Shown here piece by piece: positions 4,607 through 26,063 of a stretch of DNA of 36,716 bases; positions within the stretch are counted from its first letter, which is position 1; every line of letters begins with the position of its first letter. Below the pieces are notes generated by a model that saw only the letters and a list, made by a program, of their open reading frames with translations, ran no database searches and had not been told where the DNA came from. The stretch comes from Chloroflexota bacterium (GTDB taxonomy: Bacteria; Chloroflexota; Dehalococcoidia; Lucifugimonadales; UBA3495), in the NCBI GenBank assembly GCA_028875655.1, contig JAPPCX010000109.1, forward strand, positions 1-36,716. Reading direction: 5' to 3'. The position numbers and the translations under genes are program-made.

Positions 4607-4612
4607 ATTATA
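4607..4612 (-). promoter_or_regulatory. Candidate -10 box (TATAAT) for yhhQ
   Basis: A perfect TATAAT on the minus strand, overlapping the TAA stop of glnA. It would start a transcript near 4600 with a leader of about 50 nt before yhhQ. The hexamer 17 bases upstream (GATTTC) is a poor -35 match, so this is a prediction from the -10 alone. Confidence 0.45.
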
Positions 4613-5948
4613 ACAGCGGCAAATATCTGGAAATCTCGTAGTCAGTTACCGCGGAGCTGTAGTCTTCCCACTCCTTCTTCTTGTTGCGGATCAGCGTTTC
4701 ATGCACAAACTCGCCCAGGGTTTCGCGCAACAGGCTGCTCTCTTCGGCCAGCGCGATGGCTTCACCCAGGTTGGTGGGCAGCCGGGAGATGCCACGCGCC
4801 GCCCGCTCCTCCGCCGGCATCCGCGATACGTCGGACGTCACCGGCGACGGCAGCGGGTATTCTTCCTCAATGCCCTTCAATCCCGCCGCCAGCAGCGCGC
4901 TGAACGCCAGGTACGGATTGCAGGCCGGATCCGGCGCGCGGTACTCCACCCGCAGCGAGGTCTCGTAGCCGGTCTTGTACGACGGCACACGGATCAGGTC
5001 CAGCCGGTTCGACATGGTCCACGAAACATGCACCGGCGCCTCGTAACCCGGCACCAGTCGCTTGTAGGAATTTACCCACTGATTGGTCACCAGCGTTATC
5101 TCCGGCGAGTGCCGCAGCAACCCGGCGATGAAACGCTTGCCGGTTACGGACAGGTGCAGGTCGTCGTCGGTGTCGTAGAAGGCGTTGGCATTGCCACGAA
5201 ACAGCGACTGGTGAGTGTGCATGCCGCTCCCGTTCTTGGTGCGGAACGGCTTGGGCATGAAGGATGCGTACACGCCCTGCTGCTGCGCCAGTTCCTTGAT
5301 GACCATGCGGGCCGTCATCACGTTGTCGGCCATGGTCAGCGCGTCGGTGTATTGCAGGTCGATTTCGTGCTGGCTGTGCGCGCCCTCGTGGTGCGAATAC
5401 TTGACGGGGATTCCCATGTCCGCCAGGTTCAGCACCGTATCGCGGCGCAGGTCGGAGGCGGGGTTGCTGGAAAGCTGGTCGTAATAGCCATAGGTGTCCA
5501 GCGGCTCCAACGATTCCGCGTCTTTCAGGTAGAAATACTCCAGCTCCGGCCCCACGTAGTAGATGTAGCCCAGGCTCGCCAGCCGTTCCAGGTTGCGCTT
5601 GAGGACCTGGCGCGGGTCGCCGACGAACGGCTCGCCCCGGGGCGTGCGGATGTCGCAGAAGATGCGCGCCACCGAGTTCTGTCGCGGCCGCCAGGGCAGC
5701 AGCGAGAACGTAGTCGGGTCCGGGAACGCGCGCAGGTCGCTCTCTTCGTCGGTGGTGAAACCGTCGATAGCCGCGCCGTCGAATCCTACTCCCAACTCCA
5801 GCGCGTCCTCCAGGTCGTCCACCGTGATGGCGAAGCCCTTGAGGTTCCCCAGTATGTCCGTGAACCAGAGGCGAATGAACTTGACGTCGAAGTCGCGGGC
5901 GCTGCGCAGCACGTACTCGCGCTCGGCGGCGTGGTGGTCGGTCAGCAT
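4608..5948 (-). CDS. glnA: Glutamine synthetase, type I alpha
   Basis: A 446-residue glutamine synthetase that joins ammonium to glutamate using ATP, forming a dodecamer in the cytoplasm. The N-terminal beta-grasp domain contains GFDGAAIDGF, supplying the Asp of the neighbouring active site. The catalytic domain shows GPELEYFYL (metal-binding Glu), SHHEGAHSQHEIDLQY, KPFRTKNGSGMHTHQSL, the Arg-containing NSYKRLVPGYEAP and RVEYRAPDPACNPYLAF. Its length and the lack of the adenylylation-loop region point to the alpha subtype, so feedback control rather than adenylylation is likely. The open frame extends to 5996, but ATG 5948 is chosen because AGGAG lies seven bases before it and because the broken hicA ends at 5965. 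A small oddity is SNRLDLIRVP where many members have SNRSALIR. Two ammonium transporters follow upstream on the same strand. Confidence 0.95.
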   Translation of the reverse strand: MLTDHHAAEREYVLRSARDFDVKFIRLWFTDILGNLKGFAITVDDLEDALELGVGFDGAAIDGFTTDEESDLRAFPDPTTFSLLPWRPRQNSVARIFCDIRTPRGEPFVGDPRQVLKRNLERLASLGYIYYVGPELEYFYLKDAESLEPLDTYGYYDQLSSNPASDLRRDTVLNLADMGIPVKYSHHEGAHSQHEIDLQYTDALTMADNVMTARMVIKELAQQQGVYASFMPKPFRTKNGSGMHTHQSLFRGNANAFYDTDDDLHLSVTGKRFIAGLLRHSPEITLVTNQWVNSYKRLVPGYEAPVHVSWTMSNRLDLIRVPSYKTGYETSLRVEYRAPDPACNPYLAFSALLAAGLKGIEEEYPLPSPVTSDVSRMPAEERAARGISRLPTNLGEAIALAEESSLLRETLGEFVHETLIRNKKKEWEDYSSAVTDYEISRYLPLL

Positions 5949-5964
5949 GGGTTTCTCCTGATAC

Positions 5965-6226
5965 TCACATTCGGAATCGTTCCGGTATCTCGCCATCCAA
6001 AGCCGTCCGGAACTCGTCGTCGCTAACCCCTGAATCGCGAACCATTTTAGTTACCGTGCCCATCGGCAAAGTCCCCCGGTGCCGGGGAATATGTGCGGTT
6101 AGTCCAAGCCCCGCGTGCTGTAACCGGTTACTGAGGTGAGCGCCCTCTGCCGACTGGCCGGAACCCCAAACGTAGAAAGGCCGACAGTACCTCTGCTGCA
6201 TTCAAGTTGCGAAAATACGGCGGCAT
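5965..6226 (-). pseudogene. hicA: Frameshifted hicA toxin remnant
   Basis: The HicA-type mRNA-interferase toxin of the hicBA pair, broken by a one-base shift. Frame one starts at ATG 6226, overlapping the hicB stop by one base, and reads the usual HicA N-terminus (NAAEVLSAFLRLGFRPVGRG) before running out at TAA after 32 codons. A second frame, open across 5965-6201, reads the HicA C-terminal half from GAHLS through HIPRHRGTLPMGTVTKMVRD. Removing one G from the GGG run (plus-strand CCC at 6143-6145) joins them as ...PVGRGAHLS..., placing the catalytic His in the expected RG(S/A)H context and giving an 86-residue protein, normal for HicA. It is either a true pseudogene, a sequencing or assembly error in the GGG run, or much less likely a programmed shift. 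It ends 16 nt before glnA. Confidence 0.75.
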
Positions 6227-6579
6227 CAGACAACCGGGTCGTAAAGGTCTGCGAAACGGGGATTGTCTCGCATCTCTGCTTCAGTCATAAACCTCGGCTC
6301 CACCCAATGCAACTCGGTAATTCCGCCTTCTTCATGGCATTCGGCAAGAACGACTTGTTTCTTGTATTCAGTCTGTTTGTCATCAAAAACCACCACCTCC
6401 CACCCCGGCACCGGTTCCAGATAAGACGCCATCGCATCGGCAATCATCGCCAGCGCCTCTTCACGAGTTTGGCCGTCGGAGACGCAGCCGCGCATGGCGA
6501 GACAAACCGCTGTCCACCATAAGTTGTCGGGGGGTTCCAACTCCGGGTATTTGACCAATACCACTTCGTACTGTGCCAT
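6226..6579 (-). CDS. hicB: HicB-family antitoxin
   Basis: A 117-residue HicB-like antitoxin, expected to bind and neutralise HicA and possibly repress its own promoter. The N-terminal RNase H-like fold is visible: a first strand (YEVVLVKYPE), then WWTAVCLAMRGCVSDGQTREEALAMIADAM, the family's GCxSxGxTxEEAxxxIxDA pattern at about 22-51. The C-terminal part (about 55-117) is acidic and has no recognised DNA-binding domain. Order hicB then hicA, with stop and start overlapping as TGATG, is a standard arrangement. Here the toxin partner is frameshifted, leaving the antitoxin apparently alone. A perfect 28-bp palindrome lies just upstream of its start. Confidence 0.8.
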   Translation of the reverse strand: MAQYEVVLVKYPELEPPDNLWWTAVCLAMRGCVSDGQTREEALAMIADAMASYLEPVPGWEVVVFDDKQTEYKKQVVLAECHEEGGITELHWVEPRFMTEAEMRDNPRFADLYDPVV

Positions 6580-6607
6580 GGTCCGTTGCCTCCGGTTCGC
6601 CAGCGTC

Positions 6608-6635
6608 GTAGGGGCGAATGATCATTCGCCCCTAC
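6608..6635. repeat. Perfect 28-bp palindrome, GTAGGGGCG family
   Basis: Two 14-base arms, GTAGGGGCGAATGA and its exact complement, with no spacer. It lies between the hicB start and the end of the first ammonium transporter gene, where it could act as a terminator for the minus-strand amt transcript, although no T-run follows. The outer nine bases (GTAGGGGCG / CGCCCCTAC) recur in the palindrome at 32553-32581, while the core differs, so it belongs to a dispersed palindrome family. Confidence 0.85.
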
Positions 6636-6715
6636 ACATTCATTCGTCGCTGGCAATTGTACCACCCGGCCCGCCGGCGACTTGCTGGCCGCCGCTACTG
6701 CCGGGCTGCCCCCGG

Positions 6716-7936
6716 TTACTGGGCCATACCCTCGCCGTGCTGGGCGAGGTCGATGCCCACTTCCTCTTCCGTGTCGTTGACGCGCAGTCCGATGGTGAAC
6801 TTCAACGCCAGCAGGATGATGCTGGACACCACGAACGACCAGGCGAACGCCGCGCCGATGCCGATCAACTGGTACAGCACCTGCTCAATCCGCGAGACGT
6901 CGGCGTCCAGCGCGCCGAACCCGATGCCCACGAACAGACCGGTGGCCAGCGCGCCCCACATCCCGCCGATGCCGTGGATGCCGAAAACGTCAAGCGAGTC
7001 GTCGATGCGGAGTTTGTGAATCAGCTCAACGGCGAAGAAGCAGGCCGCGCCTGCCCCCGCTCCGATGATGATGGCCGGCATCACGCCCACGAATCCCGCC
7101 GCCGGCGTAATCGCCACCAGGCCCGCAACCGCTCCCGCCGCCGCGCCGCTGGCCGACGGACGATGCGTAAAGAACCACGACACGAAGGACCAGGACGACA
7201 TCGCAGTGGCCGCCGCTACGTTGGTAACCACAAAGGCGTTGGCCGCGTCATAGGTGGAAAGGTTGAAACTGCTGCCGGCGTTGAATCCGAACCAGCCGAA
7301 CCAGAGCAGCCCGGCGCCCAGCAGCACCAGGGGCACGTTGTGCGGCACAATCGGGAGCGTGCCGAACCCGACGCGACGGCCCACGATGAACGCCGCCGCC
7401 AGCGCGGCCGTGCCCGACGCGATATGCACCACCGTGCCGCCGGCAAAGTCCAGCGCGAACCCAGCCTCGCTCATCCCCAGCACGCTGCCCAGGTTGCCCA
7501 GCCAGCCGCCGCCCCACACCCAGTGGCACAGCGGAGCGTACACGATGGTTACCCACAGGGCCGCGAAGATGATGTAGGACGAAAACTTGAACCGCTCGGC
7601 GAACCCGCCGGCAATGAGCGCCACGGTGATGATGGCGAACATGCCCTGGAACACCATGAACGCCTGCTCGTCGGGCAGCACGCCGATCATGCCGAATTTC
7701 GTCAGGTCGCCGACAAATCCCAGCGCGCCCACGCTGTTGCCGAAGGCCAGGCTGTATCCCCACAGCACCCAAACTATGCTCACCACGCCGATGGCCGCGA
7801 CTGAGTGCATCATCGTTCCGATGACGTTCTTATGCCGTACCAGGCCTCCGTAAAACAGCGCCAGGCCGGGCACCATGATGAATACCAGCGCTGACGATAT
7901 CAGGAAGGTCAGCACTTCCAGTTCCGAGAACTCCAT
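6716..7936 (-). CDS. amt: Ammonium transporter Amt
   Basis: A 406-residue Amt/AmtB-family channel that moves ammonium into the cell, working as a trimer in the inner membrane. Eleven hydrophobic helices can be traced. The twin pore histidines are present: H171 in DFAGGTVVHIASG and H321 in FGIHGIGGMWG, as is the family Asp (D163). The C-terminal tail is short (about 25 residues, acidic). There is no obvious signal peptide, unlike the second amt gene upstream. The start ATG 7936 has GAGGAG seven bases before it. No PII (glnK) gene accompanies it in this window although amtB-glnK pairing is common. With the neighbouring glnA it forms an ammonium uptake and assimilation set. Confidence 0.95.
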   Translation of the reverse strand: MEFSELEVLTFLISSALVFIMVPGLALFYGGLVRHKNVIGTMMHSVAAIGVVSIVWVLWGYSLAFGNSVGALGFVGDLTKFGMIGVLPDEQAFMVFQGMFAIITVALIAGGFAERFKFSSYIIFAALWVTIVYAPLCHWVWGGGWLGNLGSVLGMSEAGFALDFAGGTVVHIASGTAALAAAFIVGRRVGFGTLPIVPHNVPLVLLGAGLLWFGWFGFNAGSSFNLSTYDAANAFVVTNVAAATAMSSWSFVSWFFTHRPSASGAAAGAVAGLVAITPAAGFVGVMPAIIIGAGAGAACFFAVELIHKLRIDDSLDVFGIHGIGGMWGALATGLFVGIGFGALDADVSRIEQVLYQLIGIGAAFAWSFVVSSIILLALKFTIGLRVNDTEEEVGIDLAQHGEGMAQ

Positions 7937-8208: not shown

Positions 8209-9570
8209 TTAGCTGACGGCCGCCGATTCGGGGTAGGTCTGGATGCCGTGCTCGGATACGTCGAGACCTTCGATCTCTTCGGCCTCGCTGACCCGGACGC
8301 CCATGGTGAACTTCAGCAGGTAGAACAGGGCGAAGCCGGTTACCAGGGACCAGACCACCACCGCAACGATGCTCACGATCTGCGGAACGATCAGCGACGC
8401 GCTGCCGCCCACCAGGCCGCCGTCATTCGCGAAGATGGCAATGGCCAGCAGGCCCCACAGTCCGGTTACGCCATGCACGCTGATCGCGCCCACCGGATCG
8501 TCGATCTTCAGCACCCGCTCCATGAACATCACGGAACCGTACATGACGGGCGCGGCGATGGCTCCGATGACCACTGCGGCCCACGGGTCCACGAAGTTGA
8601 CGGGCGCGGTGATGCCCACCAAACCGGCCAGCGCGCCGTTGCACGCCATCAGGATGTCGGCCTTGCCCTTGACGATGAGGGTGATGTACAGGGCCACCAC
8701 CGCTCCGGTCGCGCCGGACAGCAGCGTGTTGACCGCGTTCAGGCCGATGTCGTCACCCCAGCCGATGTTGAAGCCGAACCAGCCGAAGAACAGGATGAAC
8801 GTGCCCGCCACCACGAAGGGCGTGCTGTGGGCCGGCAGTTCCTGCGCCACTCCGTTGACGAACTTGCCCATGCGGGGGCCGACCACCATGGCGCCGGCCA
8901 ACGCCACGAATCCACCCACCGCGTGCACCACGCCGGAACCGGCGTAGTCCAGCGCGCCCATTTCGGCCAGCCAGCCGCCGCCCCAGACCCAGTGTCCGTA
9001 GATGGGGTAAATGAGGGCGGAGACGATGAAGCTGTAGGCCAGGTAGGTTTGCAGCTTGGTGCGCTCGGCCATGGCGCCGGCCACGATGGTCGCGGCGGTG
9101 GCGGCGAACACCATCTGGAAGATCCAGCCCACGTAGTCGCCGCTGGCCAGGAACCACCCGGTCAGGCCGATAAATCCGCCGGCGGTCTCGCCCAGCATGA
9201 ACGCGAACCCGAAGGCCCAGAAGCCCAGGGAGGCGATGGCAAAGTCCATGAAGGACTTGGTGAGGTAGTTGGTCGTGTTCTTGGAACGAATCAGGCCCGC
9301 GCCCAGGAAAGCGAAACCGGCCTGCATGAAGAAGACCAACGCCGCCGCCACCACGGTGACGATGTTGTCCGAGTAGCCGTTGAGCCACTCCGTGGTGGGC
9401 GCGTCATCCTGGGCGAAAGCGATGTTGAAGGACGCCAGCAGTCCGATTGCCAGCAGTCCCACGGCCAACGCCAGCAGCGTCCGCCGCAACGAGAGCGGGT
9501 ACTCCTTCACCGCGGCGACGCCGTGGTTGAGCACCTCCTGACTGAAGAGCGATTTGGTCGCCGAAAGCAT
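8209..9570 (-). CDS. amt: Ammonium transporter Amt with signal peptide
   Basis: A second Amt-family ammonium channel, 453 residues from ATG 9570. It carries the twin pore histidines H216 (DYAGSGVVHAVGG) and H366 (ISVHGVTGLWG). Unlike its neighbour it has an N-terminal extension with a hydrophobic stretch at about 31-52 ending AFAQDD, which looks like a cleavable signal peptide. That leaves eleven helices in the mature protein with an outside N-terminus, as known for this family. The open frame reaches 9666, but the earlier residues are low-complexity and basic; ATG 9570 has AGGAGG 12 bases upstream, a strong site at slightly long spacing. It is only moderately similar to the first Amt by eye, so they look like anciently diverged paralogues rather than a recent duplication. 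Confidence 0.93.
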   Translation of the reverse strand: MLSATKSLFSQEVLNHGVAAVKEYPLSLRRTLLALAVGLLAIGLLASFNIAFAQDDAPTTEWLNGYSDNIVTVVAAALVFFMQAGFAFLGAGLIRSKNTTNYLTKSFMDFAIASLGFWAFGFAFMLGETAGGFIGLTGWFLASGDYVGWIFQMVFAATAATIVAGAMAERTKLQTYLAYSFIVSALIYPIYGHWVWGGGWLAEMGALDYAGSGVVHAVGGFVALAGAMVVGPRMGKFVNGVAQELPAHSTPFVVAGTFILFFGWFGFNIGWGDDIGLNAVNTLLSGATGAVVALYITLIVKGKADILMACNGALAGLVGITAPVNFVDPWAAVVIGAIAAPVMYGSVMFMERVLKIDDPVGAISVHGVTGLWGLLAIAIFANDGGLVGGSASLIVPQIVSIVAVVVWSLVTGFALFYLLKFTMGVRVSEAEEIEGLDVSEHGIQTYPESAAVS

Positions 9571-9792
9571 TTGTGATCTGTGCCTCCTGATGGATTTTGA
9601 GGCGTCGTCGCGTCCGCCGCAGGCGGACTGTGGGCGGCGTCCCGATTTGAAATTGACCGTCATCATGGTAGGTACGCCGTGTTAACCGGTGATTGCGCCG
9701 TGATTAACAAACTGTTGCTTATGAGTTACTTTTATGTTTCGCGGTGCAATTGCCGACTCCGCCGGCCATGCCGGCCAATCTGCCCCGTCGTG

Positions 9793-10714: not shown

Positions 10715-10868
10715 AGGCTCAGGACGAGCGGGCGGAAGGCTCAGGACGAGCGGGCGGAAGGCTCAGGACGAGCGGGCGGAAGGCTCAGGACGAGCGGGCG
10801 GAAGGCTCAGGACGAGCGGGCGGAAGGCTCAGGACGAGCGGGCGGAAGGCTCAGGACGAGCGGGCAGA
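10715..10868. repeat. Seven tandem copies of a 22-bp unit
   Basis: Seven head-to-tail copies of a 22-bp unit (AGGCTCAGGACGAGCGGGCG followed by GA). The first six are identical and the seventh differs by one G-to-A change. Because 22 is not a multiple of three, all forward frames stay open and read the same Arg/Gly/Ala-rich peptide, so the open frames here are not evidence of a gene. The first copy is preceded by CCTTCGAG, which makes the start resemble the dispersed CTTCGACAGGCTCA-type element found elsewhere in the window; the array probably arose by expansion of such an element. Near identity implies recent expansion. Confidence 0.95.
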
Positions 10869-10887
10869 ACCTTTGCGCGCTACAGGG

Positions 10888-23176: not shown

Positions 23177-23842
23177 ATGATTAGCTTCAACCCTCGTCCA
23201 TCCGACTCAATATTGCTGGTCGAAGGCTCGAACGACAAACACGTCATCAAACACTTAGCCGAACGTTTTGATCCCAATCTCGAGTTCGCAATCAAAGACT
23301 ACGGAGGTATTGATGGGGTTCTGGCGAACATCCGCGACCATATTGATGAACCAGGCCGTCCTGCTGTCGGCATAGTAGTCGATGCCGACGCTGTCCAACT
23401 TCAAAGCTGGCGCCGCGTCTGTGACGAAATCGCGAGCGCTGAGCGTAATATTTCCCCTATCCCTCCTGCACCTGACCCGCAGGGAACTATCATCTCGGAA
23501 AACCCCGGCAACGGAGATCCGCGTGTTGGCATTTGGGTGATGCCTGATAATATTTCTTTGGGCGAATTGGAAGGATTCATCGCGCGAATGATCCCGGCTG
23601 GCGATATGATCTGGCCGCTGTCTCGACGCTACATAGACCAGATCCCTTTGGCGGTACGTCCATTTGCAAGCACACTCGCTCAGGTAGCTCAAAACAAAAT
23701 ACTTGGCGCGCAAGTTCACGCTTGGTTAGCGACCCGAGCGGATCCACGACCGATGGGCCTCGCCATTGGAGCTAACGACCTTGATACCAATGTCCCTGTA
23801 ACCCAAACCTTTCTCCGCTGGCTCGCCAACCTCTTCCGCTAG
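23177..23842 (+). CDS. DUF3226 TOPRIM-like protein, candidate effector
   Basis: A 221-residue protein matching the DUF3226 pattern, a TOPRIM-like fold. Acidic positions expected of TOPRIM nucleases are visible: E16 in ILLVEGSNDKHVI, D69 and D71 in GIVVDADA, and a later acidic cluster in VGIWVMPDNISLGELEGF (D124, E130, E132). KDYGGIDGVL at about 40-49 is also characteristic. It starts three bases after the ATPase gene with GAGGTG nine bases before ATG, so the two are translated together. Sampled G+C is about 47%, well below the core genes, pointing to acquisition. By analogy with OLD and PARIS it may be the nuclease effector released or activated by the ATPase. The last three bases overlap the convergent MFS gene. 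Confidence 0.82.
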   Translation: MISFNPRPSDSILLVEGSNDKHVIKHLAERFDPNLEFAIKDYGGIDGVLANIRDHIDEPGRPAVGIVVDADAVQLQSWRRVCDEIASAERNISPIPPAPDPQGTIISENPGNGDPRVGIWVMPDNISLGELEGFIARMIPAGDMIWPLSRRYIDQIPLAVRPFASTLAQVAQNKILGAQVHAWLATRADPRPMGLAIGANDLDTNVPVTQTFLRWLANLFR

Positions 23843-25149
23843 CAGCCGCCCTCAATCCGCTCCCCGCCGCTGGCTGCGTCACGGCCCGGGCGGGTTGCCG
23901 TTAGCATTAGCAGGGAGACTACTGCCAGGTTGATGCCGAAGGCCAGGAAGGCTCCCTGGTAGCTGCCGTAGCGGTCCACCGCCAGGCCGGCCGCAGTGGG
24001 GCCCAGCGCCTGGCCGCCCACCTGCGCTGCCAGACCCCAGGCGCGTATCGCTCCCAGGTGCAGCCGCCCGAAGTAGTCGGCTCCGGCCAGCCGCGCCATG
24101 ATGTGCAGGCCGCCGACGCCGAACCCCAGGAAGAATGCTCCCAGGACGCCCACCGCGATCTCGCTGGCGAACGCCGTGGTGATGGCGCCGGTGGCGACCA
24201 CCAGACCCGACACCGTCATCACGAACCGCGCCTGCGTCTTCTGGGCCATCGCCGAAAAGGCCACGCTGGCCGGCACTTGGGAGATGGCGAACGTGCTGGC
24301 CGTCCACACCGCCACCGAAGGCGGCACGCCCTGGTCAACGAAGTGCGGCACCTGGTGCAGGGACACACCCGCCTGCACGATGAAACCGGCGAAGGCGAAC
24401 ACCATCATCAGCCAGAAGGCCCGCGTCCGCATCGCCTGGCGCAGCGTGAAGTTGATCTCCTCGGTCGCAGACTGCGGACGCCGGCCAGAAGCGGATTCAC
24501 GGCGCGCCGAACCCGCTCCGCCATCCGGCTCCAGTCCCAGGTCCTCGGGACGCCGCGCCATCAGCAGCATGGCAGGGATCACTCCCACCGCCAGCGTCCA
24601 GATGCCCAGGGTGTACCACGCCACGTCCCAGCCCCAGGCGCCGATGATCGCCTGCGCCACCAGCGGCATCACCGCCAGGCCCGAACCTTGCGTTACGTGA
24701 TTCAGCGCCAGGGCGAAGGGACGCCGCCGCACGAACCAGTTGCTCACCGCCACCGACGTCCCCAGCTCCAGCGGGCCGGAGAACGCCATGCGCCCCGGCA
24801 CGTACACCACGTAGAACATCCAGATCTGCGACACCGCGCCCAGCGCGACCGCGCACACTCCGGCGATGGCAGAGAATATGCCGACCACCATTCCCGACCC
24901 GTAGCGGTCCAGCACCAGCCCCACCATTGGCGAGACCACCGCCGCGAACACTCCGCCCAGGCTCACCGCGCCGGCCAACTCCGCTCGCGTCCAGCCGAAC
25001 TGCTCCGACATGGGCACCACGAACACCGTCAGCACCGCCACCGACATCAGCGGCCGCGCGGAGTAGGATACAACCCCCGACAGGCCCAGTATGATCCAGC
25101 CGTAGTAGAAGGGCGTCGTCCGGGCCGTCCGGGCTTGCAGCGCGCGCAT
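23839..25149 (-). CDS. MFS transporter, monocarboxylate/OxlT-like
   Basis: A 436-residue major facilitator protein with twelve hydrophobic helices and a central basic, Ser/Ala-rich loop (about 205-235). The N-terminal FYYGWIILGLSGVVSYSARP and the cytoplasmic LDRYGSG between helices 2 and 3 fit the oxalate/formate or monocarboxylate subgroup. The substrate is unknown. A TATAAT box ends only eight bases before ATG 25149 and no ribosome site is visible, so the mRNA is probably leaderless or nearly so. The stop codon shares a CTAG palindrome with the convergent TOPRIM-like gene. A decayed copy of its N-terminal region lies at 25943-26063 on the same strand. Confidence 0.9.
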   Translation of the reverse strand: MRALQARTARTTPFYYGWIILGLSGVVSYSARPLMSVAVLTVFVVPMSEQFGWTRAELAGAVSLGGVFAAVVSPMVGLVLDRYGSGMVVGIFSAIAGVCAVALGAVSQIWMFYVVYVPGRMAFSGPLELGTSVAVSNWFVRRRPFALALNHVTQGSGLAVMPLVAQAIIGAWGWDVAWYTLGIWTLAVGVIPAMLLMARRPEDLGLEPDGGAGSARRESASGRRPQSATEEINFTLRQAMRTRAFWLMMVFAFAGFIVQAGVSLHQVPHFVDQGVPPSVAVWTASTFAISQVPASVAFSAMAQKTQARFVMTVSGLVVATGAITTAFASEIAVGVLGAFFLGFGVGGLHIMARLAGADYFGRLHLGAIRAWGLAAQVGGQALGPTAAGLAVDRYGSYQGAFLAFGINLAVVSLLMLTATRPGRDAASGGERIEGGC

Positions 25150-25571: not shown

Positions 25572-25945
25572 CTAATCCTCTCCCGTCAAGGGAGAGCATC
25601 GGAAGAGCCTGACCTTCTCCGATAAACTCTTGACCCGGGCCAGCGTTTCATCCAGGGTGCCGGAGATGTCGAGGGCCGCCACCTCGAGCCGCTTGCCGGC
25701 GTGCCTGACGTGATATTCGCGGGGCTCGTCCTCGCCCTGTGCGTAAATCAGTAGGCCGCCGGGCAGGTCAAGCGCGGTGGCGTAGGCCAGCAGTTGGTAG
25801 AGGTCCGCGTTGGGAACGCTGGCATGGGTGATTTTCTTGTACTTGGCGTCGCCGACGAATACGCAGGAGCGGCCATCCCACCAGGTCAGGTCGGGGCGCA
25901 AGTGGATGCGGCCTCTGTCGTCAAGGCTATCAATGCTCAGACCGT
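25572..25945 (-). pseudogene. mcrC: mcrC remnant (C-terminal nuclease domain)
   Basis: The C-terminal part of an McrC-like protein, the nuclease subunit of the McrBC restriction system that cuts methylated DNA. Readable sequence runs from about GLSIDSLDDRGRIHLRPDL through WWDGRSCVFVGDAKYKK, containing the PD-(D/E)xK motif (RPDL ... DAKYK), then NADLYQLLAYATALDLPGGLLIY and a C-terminal tail ending SPLTGED. The first in-frame ATG is 25901, but homology clearly extends upstream to about 25945 where it stops at the junction with the MFS fragment. The N-terminal half of McrC and all of mcrB are missing. It is a truncated relic and unlikely to function. Confidence 0.75.
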
Positions 25946-26063
25946 GTCCAGCCGAAATGTTCCGACCTGGACACCACGAACACCGTCAGCACTGCCACCG
26001 ACATAAGGGGCTGCGCCGAGTACGATGCGTCGCCCGGGCCGTCCGGGTTTACAGCGCGCGCAT
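25943..26063 (-). pseudogene. Decayed N-terminal fragment of an MFS gene
   Basis: On the minus strand from ATG 26063 the sequence reads MRAL, a stop (TAA 26049-26051), then TRTARAT. After a deletion of roughly 16 codons and a frame change it continues ASYSAQPLMSVAVLTVFVV and SRSEHFGWTRSEH before a stop. The intact MFS gene at 23839-25149 reads MRALQARTARTT ... VSYSARPLMSVAVLTVFVV ... SEQFGWTRAEL, so the match is unmistakable at both protein and DNA level. It is a dead partial duplicate, fused at about 25943 to the mcrC relic. The following gap to 26387 holds only repeats and two TATAAT boxes. Confidence 0.85.

Follow-up and report, generated by a model that had tools for sequence, protein, structure and literature searches.

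Probable recent inactivation of a hicA toxin gene by a one-base insertion beside an intact hicB in a Chloroflexota bacterium

What is left of a toxin-antitoxin (TA) pair when the antitoxin gene stands open and the toxin gene is spread over two reading frames? This question is raised by a short locus in the genome of a Chloroflexota bacterium (GenBank assembly GCA_028875655.1), which amounts to 3.45 Mb in 123 contigs. One of these contigs, 36,716 nucleotides long, is called the window hereafter. On its minus strand, the genes of the locus are arranged in the order amtB, amtB, hicB, hicA, and glnA. The antitoxin gene hicB (6226-6579) is intact, with an open frame of 117 aa, and its stop codon shares one base with the start codon of hicA. 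Upstream of hicB lies an amtB-type ammonium transporter gene (6716-7936; Pfam PF00909), called amtB2, while the stop codon of hicA is followed after 16 bases by the start of glnA, the glutamine synthetase gene (4608-5948; Pfam Gln-synt_C, E 1e-114). No second copy of the locus was found, since apart from the locus itself a single DNA match of 33 bases is all that the genome contains. A promoter/terminator scan of positions 5900-6760 returned no promoter-like site and a single terminator-like site, versus 0.8 expected by chance. The interval between amtB2 and hicB includes a palindrome (6611-6632, GGGGCGAATNNNNATTCGCCCC) belonging to a genome-wide family that looks like REP-like repeats, with 54 genomic sites versus none for a reversed control pattern. 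A near copy of this palindrome, with one mismatch, is present upstream of glnA in G011, a genome of the same genus that has no hicBA at that place.

The two parts of a single HicA are contained in two overlapping minus-strand frames. Frame A (6128-6226) starts with the ATG at 6226 and runs for 32 residues before a TAA stop, and frame B (5965-6201) opens with an ATG at 6201 and is 78 aa long. The intact counterpart is the 86-aa HicA of another genome of the genus, G006, in which the order amtB2, hicB, hicA, glnA is identical. Residues 1-31 of this protein match window positions 6226-6134 with 96% identity and residues 33-86 match positions 6129-5968 with 92% identity, whereas the part of frame B preceding 6129 is out of frame. 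Taken in one stretch, the match between the G006 protein and the window pieces reaches an E value of 5e-39, far past chance. The first-pass annotation had described the two frames as the halves of one 86-residue HicA broken by one base next to an intact hicB, and this description is confirmed.

The position of the lesion turned out to be another one. In the DNA alignment with G006, the only gap column within hicA lies at 6131 and none is found at 6143-6145, and the hicB (354 columns), glnA (1341), and amtB2 (1221) alignments are gap-free. At the break, the window reads CTCAGTAACC versus CTCATAATCG in G006. The GGG at 6143-6145, to which the lesion had been assigned, is the in-frame codon of Gly28 and differs only synonymously from the GGA of G006. 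The break site guessed from one sequence was thus off by a dozen bases, a shift that matters for the likelihood of a sequencing artefact: the proposed homopolymer error has lost its basis as the extra base is located neither in the GGG nor in any other run of equal bases.

The extra base falls inside the codon of His32, which becomes CAG and directly precedes the stop, so that the His considered essential in HicA is missing from the window gene. His32 is invariant in the seven intact homologues (7/7, an aligned set from 6 genomes) and is the His of the family motif R-[GS]-x-H. The earlier placement of the break at the active-site motif therefore stands in that this codon is hit, and the join point formerly given, together with its out-of-frame "RGAH", proves to be coincidental. 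According to the available text of one study, the H24A mutation of the Burkholderia pseudomallei HicA abolishes toxicity (PMC3969222), and, judging from the motif and from the alignment with the solved structure 1whz, we take H24 to correspond to His32.

Pfam, sequence profile, and predicted fold all assign the intact homologues to HicA. All seven homologues match PF07927, six of them over the curated cut-off and one just under it, and their profile retrieves 1whz as the best solved relative (E 7e-8). The predicted model of the G006 HicA (locus L043; pLDDT 87.9) adopts a dsRBD-like fold, a statement that holds for this intact homologue only, and its best fold match in the PDB is again 1whz (E 9.4e-4), followed by two B. 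pseudomallei HicA structures, 6g26 (E 0.016) and 4c26 (E 0.19). NCBIfam gave no match for three intact HicA homologues or two HicB. Thus, the intact homologues share the family model, the fold, and the R-[GS]-x-H motif with PF07927 toxins, whereas the window copy is broken in the motif His codon. Neither frame A nor frame B alone matches any Pfam family at E 10. Because the pieces match no family while the intact homologues do, the window gene is regarded as a broken hicA rather than a working member.

The identity of HicB is less certain than that of HicA. The best Pfam match of the window protein is DUF7387 (E 0.0072), ahead of HicB_lk_antitox (PF15919, E 0.019), both under their cut-offs, and the homologue at locus L048 also remains under the cut-off of PF15919 with an E value of 0.00041. 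A search of the PDB sequences with the HicB profile retrieved no HicB, the best match being NifU (E 0.4). Searches with the predicted HicB model (pLDDT 86.5) ranked a solved HicB first and returned the HicB structures 6g1n, 6g1c, 6g26, and 4p7d as most of the best PDB matches, though weakly (best E 0.014), with TM scores by query length of about 0.3-0.5 against solved HicB; the predicted fold thus points weakly to HicB, without proof. The strongest argument is the placement of the gene right before hicA with the one-base overlap; indeed, hicA follows hicB in all seven homologous loci (L043-L049). A PADLOC search with five proteins yielded a single weak match, of a restriction enzyme to HicB (E 0.06), and a defence-system model was rejected.

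The pair resembles the Class 2 hicBA systems in that hicB precedes and overlaps hicA and in that the HicB Pfam matches at E 10 include no DNA-binding domain. These systems are characterized, in the part of the source available (PMC10865869), by a reversed gene order and a small HicB devoid of a DNA-binding domain. The likeness is close except for size, as a figure legend of the same source gives 63-103 codons for Class 2 HicB and the window protein counts 117 aa.

Does the extra base exist in the organism, or does it stem from an assembly or sequencing error, or from a minor strain variant in the consensus, hicA being intact in the cell? This latter explanation was confronted with a control in which the proteins encoded by the relatives' ORFs were matched to every reading frame of the window. 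Matches below 60% identity were dropped, as were ORFs that fell short of 75 aa or overlapped better ones, and the control covers the window parts having a counterpart in the fetched stretches of the relatives. Of the 25 ORFs compared with G006 (22,155 aligned bases) and the 27 compared with G008 (28,810 bases), hicA alone showed a collinear frame split, in both comparisons, which argues against an error. In another protein-against-frames listing under the same limits, more than one frame was recorded in 3 of 28 rows for G008 and 2 of 23 rows for G006; besides hicA, these rows correspond to two ORFs antisense to, or outside, the gene list and to one full-length single-frame match accompanied by an extra partial match at another place. 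A control based on raw DNA gaps was dropped, being too noisy, with many non-triplet gaps clustered in diverged stretches. Outside the window, three stretches of 20 kb each (about 51 kb aligned) gave 0, 0, and 1 split candidates in 14, 27, and 19 ORFs, respectively. The lone candidate among these 60 ORFs is doubtful, resting on a poorly matching first part of 35 residues (60.9% identity), and may nevertheless be counted in favor of an error, as may the fragmentation of the assembly. Furthermore, the remainder of hicA is well conserved, with 94.9% nucleotide identity to G006 and 5 nonsynonymous versus 8 synonymous changes, and such an absence of accumulated damage is equally expected from an error. 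On the other side, the 14 HicA-family matches found elsewhere in the genome carry no internal stops. The nonsynonymous changes are fewer than under neutral drift (binomial P = 0.007), and most of the divergence therefore arose under selection. Taken together, the non-homopolymer site, the sole frame split, and the still mostly synonymous changes make a recent real inactivation likelier than an error, which is considered unlikely.

Two further readings would preserve a product from the split gene. A programmed frameshift or transcriptional slippage could join the frames and deliver a controlled amount of toxin, as might be imagined from their overlap and from the conservation still visible in frame B. 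The break, however, offers no run of equal bases on which to slip, each of the seven intact homologues is a single open frame (six of them being 56-72% identical to the G006 protein), and the split is found in this genome only; such recoding is accordingly judged very improbable. Frame B could also be translated by itself, either starting with the ATG at 6201 or through reinitiation, into an N-truncated HicA with a kept function such as HicB binding. It is indeed an open frame with its own ATG, and the G002 genome likewise retains a HicA ORF missing the first part of the protein. But its first 24 residues are out-of-frame sequence, helix 1 and the part carrying the family His are gone, and the silence of Pfam even at E 10 applies to it as well, so that this option has hardly any credit.

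A real, recent inactivation of HicA beside an intact HicB is thus retained with moderate to good confidence, and the other genomes of the genus, with one genome per species, provide its context. A close glnA (84-100% identity) is present in 13 of the 14 genomes, G009 showing only a 71% match, and hicBA was searched in about 1.5 kb upstream of the close glnA by tblastn at E 1e-4. The pair is intact there in 5 of the 13 genomes (G004, G005, G006, G007, and G008) and frameshifted solely in the window genome (G000), whereas neither hicB nor hicA was found in that interval in six others (G001, G003, G010, G011, G012, and G013). The remaining genome, G002, contains a part of hicA without hicB. In this locus (L053), hicA is N-truncated with an altered C-terminus, and nothing is left of hicB save an apparent start; a deletion appears to have joined the hicB start to a hicA lacking its first part, leaving a toxin remnant without antitoxin. 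With a frameshift in the window genome and a deletion in G002, the pair has therefore decayed at least twice, by different routes. The suggestion of the first-pass annotation that toxin loss is tolerated gains support from the intact orthologue standing at the same place in a same-genus genome.

In most carriers, amtB2 immediately precedes hicB; G007 differs in that an additional glnA-like gene and more sequence separate the two. In one relative, the pair itself is far more diverged than its surroundings. When the window (5965-6579) is compared with G008 (L047, 5001-5611), the identity of hicBA drops sharply between similar flanks. The dS values are 1.2 for hicB and 1.9 for hicA, versus 0.31 for amtB2 and 0.54 for glnA; those of the pair, derived from 64-76 synonymous sites, are close to saturation, and only their order is meaningful. 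Selection on amino acids alone is insufficient as an explanation because it would not raise dS, and the diverged sequence suggests an allele exchange at a fixed place as the simplest reading. In the hicB tree, G000 and G006 group with G004 (88/85), whereas in the amtB2 tree, G004 groups with G007 (100/100). A wider and rather doubtful extension would be a recurrent TA slot in the glnA leader, in which hicBA alleles are swapped between species via recombination in the flanking nitrogen genes and repeatedly disarmed. In this reading, the closeness of the toxin stop to glnA might link translation of the toxin to nitrogen assimilation. Plasmid and phage collections gave no match for the G006 HicA at E 1e-5 and viral contigs contained no relative detected with the HicB alignment; a spread of hicBA on mobile elements was rejected on these grounds.

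The first amtB (8209-9666) is 97% identical to that of G008 and only 80% to that of G006, while identity to G006 amounts to 97-99% in amtB2, glnA, and a rhodanese gene. Just after the rhodanese gene, a 22-bp unit recurs in tandem in seven near-perfect copies (10715-10869). Farther on, a McrC-type gene remnant (25572-26063) matches only the last part of the PF10117 model, and only 24% of the corresponding 462-aa ORF of G006 matches there. Beside this remnant, the beginning of the MFS transporter gene (23839-25149) is matched in part a second time. The remnant is perhaps another decayed defence gene.

Antitoxin genes lacking a working partner are already known as solo genes (PMC2701414), and 15 solitary toxin or antitoxin genes were counted in Sinorhizobium meliloti according to the available part of another report (PMC2374986). 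The window hicB resembles them, with the difference that its broken partner is still recognizable and is intact in a same-genus genome. The literature search found no paper joining HicA with glnA and amtB. In the portion available of one publication on HicA/HicB frameshifts or pseudogenes, no broken hicA is stated, and the search results on solo or inactivated toxins and antitoxins and on sponge symbionts name no such locus.

The preferred reading is that the hicBA genes between amtB and glnA probably constitute a chromosomal type II TA pair in which the insertion of a single base has recently inactivated the toxin gene. By analogy with the HicA family, from which the toxicity and neutralization of these proteins are inferred, the intact HicA would be a small mRNA-cutting RNase of dsRBD fold kept inactive by HicB. 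The base added to the invariant His codon, with a stop right after it, would limit the broken gene to a 32-residue product when read from its own start, while hicB carries no lesion. This piece would comprise helix 1 but neither the family His nor the main strands, and presumably no toxin is made for this reason. HicB would persist because an antitoxin without toxin is harmless and the time for decay has been short. The safe order of loss would indeed be toxin first, with the antitoxin kept. Such toxin loss with a kept antitoxin is known, ordinary gene decay and adds no new mechanism to toxin-antitoxin biology. The locus nevertheless illustrates cleanly how the loss of a TA pair begins, as a single base in a key codon is affected, the antitoxin gene is spared, and an intact version of the same pair is still present in a genome of the same genus.
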